Source of the DNA: Ulva prolifera
Taxonomy: Eukaryota; Chlorophyta; Ulvophyceae; Ulvales; Ulvaceae
DNA: 64,000 nucleotides
NCBI GenBank assembly: GCA_023078555.1
Contig: CM041196.1
Location: 1,550,001 to 1,614,000 of the forward strand
Reading direction: 5' to 3'
The notes under the pieces were generated by a model that ran no database searches, had not been told where the DNA came from, and saw nothing but the letters and a program-made list of their open reading frames with translations. Below, piece after piece: positions 10,795 to 52,738 of this stretch; the stretch's first letter is position 1; each line of letters opens with the position of its first letter. Made by a program: the position numbers and the translations under genes.

Positions 10795-11580
10795 ATGGCC
10801 ACGTCCAGTCGCACCACCCACAAGTGGCCGTGGCGGCGCCACCTCCTCGCGCTCGCCCTGATCTACTCCCGTCAGCTCCCCCAGGTCCACAGTGAAGCAG
10901 CCCTCACACCGTCCATCTGCGTCGACGCCGCCAGCGACCTGCTGTCCAGCCTCGCAGTCGATCAGCCGTCCCGCTACTCCGCAGCAACCTGCGACGTGGC
11001 CCCTGTCACCACCGTCTGCGAGATCACCGGCACACCCGGCCCTTGCGCGGCCGTCCCAGACTGCCAGACCCTCAGCACCCGCGTCGACGGCTCCTGCACG
11101 CCGACGAACGAGGCCGGAGCTTGCTGCACCACATTCCGCGCGCTCCCATGCGTTGGGTGCACCCCCATCCCCCTCGCGTGCCTACAATTCTGCTTCGATG
11201 AGCCTACCACCTCCGCGGTACCTCCCGCCGATCCCGCAAACGCAACACTCCCCGTGGCCGCGGACACGCCGCCGCCGCCGCCGCCGCCGCCGCCGCCGCC
11301 GGCGGCAGCAGCACCGTCAGAAGAGGAGGAGGGGGACGAGGGGTTGGCCGACCCCGAGGCTGCCCCCGCGACGCTCGGCACCGCAGACTCGGCCAGCAAC
11401 GAGGACGAGCCCCTTCTGACCACCTCCGGCCCCTCCGAACGGACCCCGACCGGCATGCCGCGGCAGATCATCGTCGAGTCCATCAGTGCGGCGGCCCCTG
11501 CCCCACATGGCCTGTGGCTCGCCATCGCAGTGTCGACGGTCTCAACCACAGCAGCGGCGCTCGTGTGTGGCAGCTTGTAG
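10795..11580 (+). CDS. Secreted/anchored 12-cysteine protein, one module (261 aa)
   Basis: Intron-free frame. I chose ATG 10795 (context GCAATGG) over the upstream in-frame ATG 10738 because it starts directly at a basic region followed by a hydrophobic signal (RRHLLALALI). Residues 42-133 form one 12-cysteine module with the adjacent CC pair and the final C-x2-C-x6-C-x3-C. A run of 11 prolines (about 159-169, encoded by a CCG repeat) and an acidic EEEEGDEG stretch follow. The last ~25 residues are hydrophobic (WLAIAVSTVSTTAAALVC), suggesting a GPI signal or membrane anchor. The protein is therefore likely on the cell surface; its partner and role are unknown. It is the simplest member of the paralogous set in this window and the most divergent in spacer sequence. 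Confidence 0.75.
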   Translation: MATSSRTTHKWPWRRHLLALALIYSRQLPQVHSEAALTPSICVDAASDLLSSLAVDQPSRYSAATCDVAPVTTVCEITGTPGPCAAVPDCQTLSTRVDGSCTPTNEAGACCTTFRALPCVGCTPIPLACLQFCFDEPTTSAVPPADPANATLPVAADTPPPPPPPPPPPAAAAPSEEEEGDEGLADPEAAPATLGTADSASNEDEPLLTTSGPSERTPTGMPRQIIVESISAAAPAPHGLWLAIAVSTVSTTAAALVCGSL

Positions 11581-12709
11581 TGCCGGCTGGCCTGCGTCCG
11601 AGCCCGCTGCTGTCACGCAGCGGTGTCCGAGCATCTACATCTGATTCTCAATGCTCCGAGGGATGGAAGTTCGACACACTGCGGACGCGCATGGGCATGC
11701 GAGAGCCTCGCCGAGCGCTGAAGGGCTTCGCAACGGGCGCCATGGATGCCTGTAGAGGTGCACATGCATGTGCAGAGACGACCAGGTAGAGCATCAGCTG
11801 AAGCGGGGGGGGCTGCGGGCGGCGTGCTGCGGGTGTAGCCGCAGGCGCCATCCAGGACCGCACGTGGAGCAGTGGCGTCGAGGCGTCAGGGGAGCGTGCG
11901 GGAATGCACCTGTGCGGTCGCTGCCGTTCGCTGCCACAGCTGTCTGAGATTACGAGGTTGGCTTTGATGGAGAGCCTGGTGGCTGGTGTGGGGGCGGGTT
12001 TGCGATCCATCATCAGTATTGCAAAAGATAGTTGCAAGTGAGGAGGTGAGACTCGTGCACTGTGATGGGCCGCAGATGTGGGGACCATGGTAGGGGCTGT
12101 GAGTGCAAGGGTGAATGTGGGGGTGTGTGGGTGTCGCAATGACAAAGGAACGAGGCGGGCAGCACCGAGAAAACAGCGAGCGGTGCGATGACAGGTTTGC
12201 TGGGGGGTTGCGTACCGGGCATCGTGTTCAGGCCTCCGCTCCGTGGGGCAGCGGGGATATTGGGGGTTTTGATGCAGGCGTCAGAGACATGTTGCTGTGG
12301 CACGCTAGAGGCGTGAGCCATGCCAAGCCGTCGGCAAGCTGTGCCCTCTGGACCGGTTGCCACACTTTTGACCACGGACACCGTGTACATCCTCTCTTTC
12401 TGCACGTGCTTGTAGCATGTGATTTTTTTAGAGCTACACGCAGCTGGAAATTGGTTGCAGTGTCAGCTGGCCAGGTAGGCTCGCTGACGTACGACGCTGT
12501 GTGCCTCTCAAGGTTGTAGCCCTGTCGGTATACAGTGGCGGGAGTGCAGGTTGCAGCGGCGGTTGATACGGCCACACATGCTCGCCTGCGAGAGAGGGGC
12601 GGGCCTGTGCAGCGCCTGCACGATGATAGCACGTCTACACGATGACAACACGCTGCAAGCGTTCGAATGTTTGTGTCATGGTGGCCACACGCCTCTGACA
12701 GTGACTTAC

Positions 12710-51442: not shown

Positions 51443-52738
51443 TCAGGACTCGTCCCGGTCTCGGCGAGAGCGGCCGCGGCCTGACGCAGGTCGCGAGGGG
51501 GGCGGGGAACGGGGCGGTGATGGACCTGGGGAGCGGGAGCGTGAAGGGCTGGGTGACGGAGACGGTGACGGGGACGGTGAGCGGGATGGGGACGGAGCTG
51601 GCCGAGGAGACGGTGAAGCGGACGGCCGAGAGGAAGGTGAAGGGGACGGCCGAGAGGAAGGTGATGGCGATGGCGTGTCTTCAATTGGGCAACTTTGAAG
51701 ACAAACCACCTCCACCGGGTCGCAATCATCGCACGGCTTTGCACGCAAGACAAGACAGCAGCCTGACGATGCATCACCGCCCGCAGAGCAGTCGTCGCTG
51801 CGCACTGTCTCCACATCGGAGCAACGCACGTTGTCGGCACATTCTCCAGCACTGCCGTCTAGATCACAGACAATCAATTCGTCTGCAGACTCGCACGAAG
51901 CGGCGAAGGTTTCTGGGTCCTCCACCGCCAGCTCTTCATTGACCATGTCAGCGACAGCAGCACAGGTCGCATCTTCCTCTGAGGCGTCGGGAGACGGGGG
52001 GGAGCTGTCGTCACCGAGGCATGACTGCAGGCAGCCCACGGGCTCAGGGTCGCATGTAGGGCAGAGCTTCGCAAAGAACGTGGTGCAGCAGCCGGAGTCG
52101 TCGGCGGCAGAGGTGCAGGAATCTCCAAGGGTTGTCTCGACGTCGTCACAGAGAGAGCTGCGACCGCAGGTGCCGGCACGGCCGGCTGTGTTGCAGATGA
52201 CCTGCTCATCCGCAGAGGAGCACGATGGAGCAAAGACGTCAGGGTCTTCCATCGCTGCGGCATCGAGCACCTCATCTGCAACTGCCGCACAGACAGCCGC
52301 CGACACACCACTAGCGCTGGGCTGAGCTTCAGGCGGAGTTTCTGAGCCGTCAATAACACAGAACTGGATGCAGGCGACAGGTTCAGGGTCGCATGTGGGG
52401 CACAGCTTGCCGCTGAACGCAGTGCAGCAGCCGGAGTCATCGGCCGTGGAGGTGCAGTCGTTGAGAGTCGTGTCGACACCATCGCACGCGGCGCTGCTGC
52501 CGCAGGTGCCGCGAGTGCTGATGGTGTCGCAGAAGACCCCCGCGTTTGCGGACGAGCACGACGTTGTGAAGCTGTTGGGCTCGTCCTCCGCTAAGGCCTC
52601 GAGCAGATCGGCACCAAAGGTCCGGCAGGCGCCCGCGGTCACGGCATCGGCTTGAGCCGTGTGCACCAGAACGGTGCAAGCAAGCAGCAGGGCTGGCGCC
52701 CAGGCACACGTGCGCTGGCTGCATGCTCTGAGCAACAT
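51443..52738 (-). CDS. Secreted 12-cysteine protein, three modules, Ser-Pro-Arg tail (431 aa)
   Basis: ATG 52738 opens a signal peptide (WAPALLLACTVLVHTAQA). Modules at about 38-127, 150-240 and 259-350 are complete and each is closest to the module in the same position of the gene at 39792-40997, so the two genes were duplicated as units. The ~80-residue tail is built of SPSPSS and RPSPSPS-type repeats, encoded by a 6-bp based minisatellite (51500-51670), and ends RRDRDES. No hydrophobic C-terminus, so probably secreted. The tail resembles Ser/Arg or hydroxyproline-type repeats, but its role is unknown. Upstream DNA contains the conserved AAAGCACAGCAATGTTGAG motif. Intact, with no stop or frameshift. 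Confidence 0.8.
   Translation of the reverse strand: MLLRACSQRTCAWAPALLLACTVLVHTAQADAVTAGACRTFGADLLEALAEDEPNSFTTSCSSANAGVFCDTISTRGTCGSSAACDGVDTTLNDCTSTADDSGCCTAFSGKLCPTCDPEPVACIQFCVIDGSETPPEAQPSASGVSAAVCAAVADEVLDAAAMEDPDVFAPSCSSADEQVICNTAGRAGTCGRSSLCDDVETTLGDSCTSAADDSGCCTTFFAKLCPTCDPEPVGCLQSCLGDDSSPPSPDASEEDATCAAVADMVNEELAVEDPETFAASCESADELIVCDLDGSAGECADNVRCSDVETVRSDDCSAGGDASSGCCLVLRAKPCDDCDPVEVVCLQSCPIEDTPSPSPSSRPSPSPSSRPSASPSPRPAPSPSRSPSPSPSPSPSPSRSRSPGPSPPRSPPPSRPASGRGRSRRDRDES

Follow-up and report, generated by a model that had tools for sequence, protein, structure and literature searches.

What kind of gene family occupies a 64,000-nucleotide stretch of contig CM041196.1 of the green seaweed Ulva prolifera, and what might its proteins do? 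This stretch (the window, C1:1550001-1614000, where C1 is that contig) was described in an initial annotation as carrying seven intact genes with 17 cysteine-rich modules, an expanding secreted family of surface or wall type whose module could not be assigned. Our analysis, which covered a genome of 88.9 Mb in 44 contigs, supports an expanding, modular, secreted family with no known domain and adds a signalling link that had been overlooked, namely a predicted receptor kinase, g1487, encoded outside the window. We therefore favour extracellular recognition over structural, developmental or defensive roles: the module would be an extracellular binding domain specific to the Ulva lineage, used in several formats for recognition or matrix binding and, through at least one kinase, for signalling. 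We put the probability of this reading at about 50%.

The module family and its formats

Window genes and their cysteine positions were read from stop-to-stop frames, and relatives were sought by tblastn with three different modules and by a profile run on the fetched loci. This yielded 20 intact genes, which hold 59 modules in all: 56 have 12 cysteines and 3 have 10. The gene count is a lower bound, because only stretches around tblastn matches were read and diverged members in between may have been missed. Nineteen genes lie between C1:1421854 and C1:1849712 and the remaining one at C1:2377330, with 18 of the 20 on the plus strand. The profile gave 68 matches in 29 frames, fragments counted, and none among 4117 reversed open reading frames (ORFs) at E ≤ 10. 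Ratios of nonsynonymous to synonymous substitution (dN/dS, pairwise NG86) were 0.24-0.41 in ten paralogue pairs and 0.19-0.56 for single modules of those pairs, as would be expected of a family constrained by purifying selection. Since no reversed ORF matched and dN/dS is this low, the module family is not a product of chance. Broken copies were found at window 31872-33032, C1:1.7615 Mb and C3:5.946 Mb and as a pair on C4. In the module tree the two C4 modules, 8 kb apart, fall with the first and second modules of the 28459 window gene; we read them as one split copy, of which the first part could be a separate short gene.

Alignment of 62 modules (58 with 12 cysteines and 4 with 10) refined the proposed cysteine pattern. 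The usual spacing in the 58 twelve-cysteine modules is C-x22/23-C-x8-C-x8-C-x5-C-x9/10-C-x8-CC-x7-C-x2-C-x6-C-x3-C, with the gap of 7 after CC kept in 52 and the following gap of 2 in 54. The first gap, originally given as x21, is usually x22 (12 of the 14 twelve-cysteine modules in the window and 39 of the 58 in the fetched set). Twelve cysteines per module held for 14 of the 17 window modules; each of the genes at 17223, 23799 and 28459 starts with a module of 10. The DDSGCC core proposed for the module is exact in only 7 of the 17, and in 8 of all 62 rows, one of them outside the window, while one glycine (column 44) is conserved in 61 of 62. Cysteines 9 and 10 are absent together from all four ten-cysteine modules, which suggests that they pair with each other. 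The module, of about 98 residues, presumably forms up to six disulfides. Two structure models, with predicted local distance difference test (pLDDT) scores of 90.3 and 92.5, concur on a helix at residues 2-19 and strands near 36-44, 56-60, 71-79 and 87-96. In these models and the alignment the modules are small, discrete and folded, with variable positions between the cysteines.

The module could still not be assigned after profile and fold searches. At E ≤ 0.001, Foldseek returned no match of any kind to either model. No Pfam family matched the module over its cut-off in any of the 20 members (searched at E ≤ 5 for the 7 window proteins, E ≤ 1 for 12 and E ≤ 0.01 for g1487), within the limits that HMMER filters set on detecting weak matches; the only rows were weak ones, DUF6307 at 0.071, DUF7262 at 0.16 and VSP, under its cut-off, for g1487. 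For the 7 window proteins, NCBIfam likewise contained no matching inhibitor family.

The module tree (62 rows, 99 columns) has good support at 27 of its 59 inner branches. All 32 modules of six secreted-type four-module genes and of modules 2 to 9 of g1846 alternate between two clades of 16 modules each, A (support 95/91) and B (81/80, not strong). Judging from this alternation along the genes, the duplicated unit is an A-B module pair. For the other modules, those of the window included, the tree mostly does not resolve the deep branches.

The family comes in four formats. In ten genes the module or modules lead into a tail that is hydrophobic at or close to its C-terminal end; seven join four or nine modules by short linkers and add no more than 17 residues after the last; two three-module genes have basic Arg/Ser/Pro tails; and g1487 is the predicted receptor kinase. 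Linkers and tails are rich in Pro, Ser and Thr in most stalked members. A hydrophobic N-terminal stretch is present in 20 of 20 members, with a 12-residue mean of at least 1.9 in 19, by Kyte-Doolittle hydrophobicity used without a control and in place of SignalP; the signal peptides claimed for the window proteins are thus matched by signal-like starts in 7 of 7. A glycosylphosphatidylinositol (GPI)-like cut on the C-terminus was passed by 6 of 20 members, compared with 14 of 672 control ORFs. This simple cut, which stands in place of a dedicated predictor, was chosen after the tails had been inspected, and most of the control ORFs are chance frames rather than real genes. Among the hydrophobic-tailed genes, W10795, W36251 and g1728 fall slightly below the cut, and g1422 fails it with three charged residues. 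For the 19 genes other than g1487 the C-terminus was taken as the first stop, so that further exons are possible. GPI-like C-termini in some members and the extent of the cluster beyond the window, like the receptor kinase, had escaped the initial annotation.

A predicted receptor kinase and the role of the module

One member, g1487 (C1:1487436, plus strand), appears to be a single-pass receptor kinase with the module as its ectodomain. A transmembrane (TM) helix and a run of basic residues close its first exon, and frames further downstream on this strand hold a region rich in P, Q and Y, a FLHYQLD motif and both kinase lobes. Four exons (2680-3330, 3619-4282, 4670-4968 and 5338-5661 of locus L053), with GT-AG borders and matching phases, join in frame into a model of 646 residues that has no stop up to the end of the fourth exon and runs from a signal-like N-terminus through a 12-cysteine module and TM helix to a kinase. 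If spliced as predicted, g1487 has the layout of a receptor-like kinase (RLK), in which a signal peptide and an extracellular domain precede a single TM helix and a cytosolic kinase. The kinase motifs ALKFF, HRDLK, DFG and APPE occur in that order, and Pfam Pkinase matches at E 2.7e-18 (C-lobe frame) and 4.8e-18 (joined model). The module is divergent yet significant, at 45 bits with a profile made from the window only and E 2.5e-10 to g1745. A motif scan beside the other 19 members found no such kinase downstream in the stretches read.

The kinase of g1487 belongs to a large family, with at least 150 matches (150 of 311 candidates were scored). The closest of these, at C1:1518644, is 71% identical and adjoins a locus, L066 (C1:1518900-1522200), whose frames, read without an exon model, repeat the g1487 order of TM helix, FLHYQLD motif and kinase N-lobe; no 12-cysteine module occurs in the 3.3 kb read. 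A second kinase, at C1:1509776, is 67% identical, and its locus L065 (C1:1506300-1509900), likewise without an exon model, has a coiled-coil-like stretch followed by a related motif and kinase frames, with no 12-cysteine module in the 3.6 kb read. The order of parts in L066 suggests that the TM exon goes with the kinase and that the ectodomains vary. The common FLHYQLD-type motif of these loci near g1487, beside a module that is absent from the stretches read, looks like an exchange of N-terminal parts. Kinases related to that of g1487 also form large arrays on C5 (7.20-8.72 Mb) and C7 (0.56-0.73 Mb), a large-scale expansion in this seaweed.

With the module on the predicted g1487 kinase, recognition is no less likely a role than a purely structural one in the wall. 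In the mechanism that we propose, the module would be displayed as the ectodomain of the g1487 kinase, on mostly Pro/Ser/Thr-rich tails with GPI-like or hydrophobic ends, and in secreted proteins of four or nine modules built largely of alternating A-B pairs. The modules would bind a secreted partner or a glycan, either from the cell wall or of bacterial or other foreign origin. Members that are anchored or secreted, possibly in contact with their kinase paralogue, would present the ligand or compete for it, and the kinase member would relay the signal inward. In this way the family may help the seaweed to sense or bind its surroundings. To our knowledge, extracellular signal sensing in green seaweeds is little understood. 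Ulva needs bacterial partners for its normal form (PMC8891106), and its gametogenesis is controlled by a wall glycoprotein (PMC4306291, PMC4333771); suitable ligands and phenotypes therefore exist, with nothing that ties the family to them.

It is possible, but in our judgement unlikely, that the proteins are instead structural glycoproteins whose modules cross-link or pack wall polysaccharide or serve in a spore adhesive, with the kinase member as a side branch of exon shuffling. The Pro/Ser/Thr-rich linkers and tails, purifying selection and the lack of a downstream kinase beside the other 19 members, in the stretches read, would fit such a role, as would the arabinogalactan proteins (AGPs) reported from Ulva and the extensins from Ulva genomes (PMC10762512). 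The kinase-linked member with its checked catalytic motifs, and small folded modules that vary between their cysteines, speak for recognition instead. We consider it improbable that the family supplies developmental or mating factors, such as gamete recognition proteins or SI-1, a high-mass wall glycoprotein that inhibits sporulation: the nine-module protein is large enough to recall the latter, but the two RWP-RK loci over cut-off, which we take to be mating-type regulators, are located on C2 and C3 and not at the cluster. Still less probable is a role in defence, with the secreted proteins acting as protease inhibitors or antimicrobials. The tandem growth of the family, its duplicates and pseudogenes and its secreted modules rich in cysteine would suit that role, but a soluble inhibitor would not be expected to come with a kinase member, GPI-like tails or long stalks, and neither Pfam nor, for the window proteins, NCBIfam matched an inhibitor family. 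That the genes are chance frames or ORFs of a mobile element, as a reverse-transcriptase ORF between two members might hint, is contradicted already by the dN/dS values, the unmatched reversed ORFs and the location of 19 of 20 members in one chromosome region, and is highly implausible.

Several points weigh against extracellular recognition as well. Ligand binding has no support here, and only one member among 20 is linked to a kinase, with a module that is itself divergent. The splicing of g1487 lacks transcript support, and a trial with one border shifted by one base gave two stops. Both structure models were built on one set of 17 aligned modules and are thus not independent. The GPI-like cut, set post hoc against controls that are mostly chance frames, is passed by only 6 of 20 members, and dN/dS gives no overall sign of positive selection, a sign common in recognition families.

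Genes and other features of the window

Open frames and modules of all seven intact genes were present in the window. On the plus strand, W10795 (10795..11580) has one module with 12 cysteines (10906-11202), a Pro/acidic stalk and the hydrophobic C-terminus mentioned above. The three genes that follow on this strand each pair a ten-cysteine module with a twelve-cysteine one and end in a GPI-like tail: 17223..18263 (modules 17343-17639 and 17724-18014), 23799..24896 (23916-24212 and 24387-24680) and 28459..29652 (28591-28887 and 29002-29289). W36251 (36251..38671, plus strand) has four twelve-cysteine modules (36371-36667, 36755-37060, 37187-37480 and 37610-37903), a long Pro/Ser stalk and a hydrophobic C-terminus. 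The two genes with basic Arg/Ser/Pro tails, which are paralogues, lie on the minus strand, each with three twelve-cysteine modules: 39792..40997 (40599-40889, 40260-40553 and 39930-40226) and 51443..52738 (52349-52639, 52010-52303 and 51680-51976). The pseudogene that had been reported is a decayed copy of these three-module genes at about 31872..33032 (minus strand); in pieces, its DNA is roughly 70% identical to theirs, and an open fragment is left at 32397-32633.

Within the cluster, a 1197-residue frame at window 42293-45886 (minus strand) contains a domain of the reverse transcriptase family RVT_1 (E 6.2e-11) and lies beside a poly-T run (42120-42173), the marks of a non-LTR (non-long-terminal-repeat) element resembling a long interspersed nuclear element. 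Elsewhere, the window holds an Nramp metal transporter exon (5071-5772, minus strand, E 8.4e-31), a 1.16-kb (AC)n microsatellite (57426-58588, 585 copies at 98%) and a 175-bp tandem satellite (61455-64000, 14.5 copies at 97%) that reaches the window end and has matching arrays elsewhere on C1 and on C2, C3, C4 and C9. A MOZ_SAS acetyltransferase match was seen in 1 of 72 frames, its position not located. In the genome at large, plastocyanin was identified with PF00127 and assembled from two exons at a junction placed by eye, a choice that affects only the residues there. It matches PDB 7pcy, from Enteromorpha (Ulva) prolifera, over 98 of 98 residues with 212 bits, ahead of 1iuz, from another Ulva, with 186 bits, and so points to Ulva, most likely U. 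prolifera, as the source.

Comparison with known families

Pherophorins, hydroxyproline-rich glycoproteins (HRGPs) and AGPs resemble the Ulva proteins in being secreted, in their Pro/Ser-rich stretches and in their extracellular matrix setting (PMC10762512). They differ in that the Ulva modules have no Pfam match. We know of no pherophorin, HRGP or AGP with the 12-cysteine spacing or a kinase member.

Also similar in organization are receptor kinases and receptor-like proteins (RLPs) with common ectodomains, of which WAK-, malectin- and G-lectin-RLKs occur in green algae (PMC10834447). As with LysM, malectin, WAK, leucine-rich repeat (LRR) and lectin RLKs and RLPs, the Ulva ectodomain is common to kinase-bearing and kinase-less proteins (PMC10834447), whereas Pfam showed no such domain in the 20 Ulva proteins. 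With this layout and no named-domain match, the family looks like an RLK/RLP ectodomain family that we do not file under DUF26 or any other name.

Nearest in layout is plant DUF26 (Stress-antifung, PF01657), found in CRKs, PDLPs and secreted CRRSPs as tandem A-B domains with a lectin-like fold and described as land-plant specific, although divergence may mask algal forms (PMC6368629). Both are domains of about 100 residues with a helix, an antiparallel sheet, conserved cysteines and tandem A-B pairs, and both sit, in Ulva by prediction, on receptor kinases and on membrane-anchored and secreted proteins and have expanded by tandem duplication (PMC6368629). A literal C-x8-C-x2-C also occurs in most twelve-cysteine Ulva modules, a motif short enough for coincidence. 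Sequence profiles argue against membership: PF01657 matched none of the 20 members, and a genome search found none at family loci. The Ulva module moreover has 12 conserved cysteines and DUF26 has 6, and by description DUF26 has a central sheet that carries a pair of small helices, whereas the Ulva models place a single helix before all strands; the folds were compared by the Foldseek search (0 matches) rather than by direct alignment with a DUF26 structure. Elsewhere in the genome, C5:3891213-3891395 is a weak, sub-threshold DUF26-like stretch with two stops (E 0.007, 23.1 bits), even though DUF26 is described as absent from this lineage.

More tentatively, and with some doubt, we suggest that the module is a new ectodomain of Ulva origin, perhaps with a disulfide-rich fold of a new kind, that was built by tandem duplication into a full receptor set and is a candidate sensor of bacterial or matrix cues. 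If so, these genes can be named for tests of sensing, adhesion or wall monitoring, and the family would be an independent counterpart of DUF26, a second example of receptor-family building in the green lineage.
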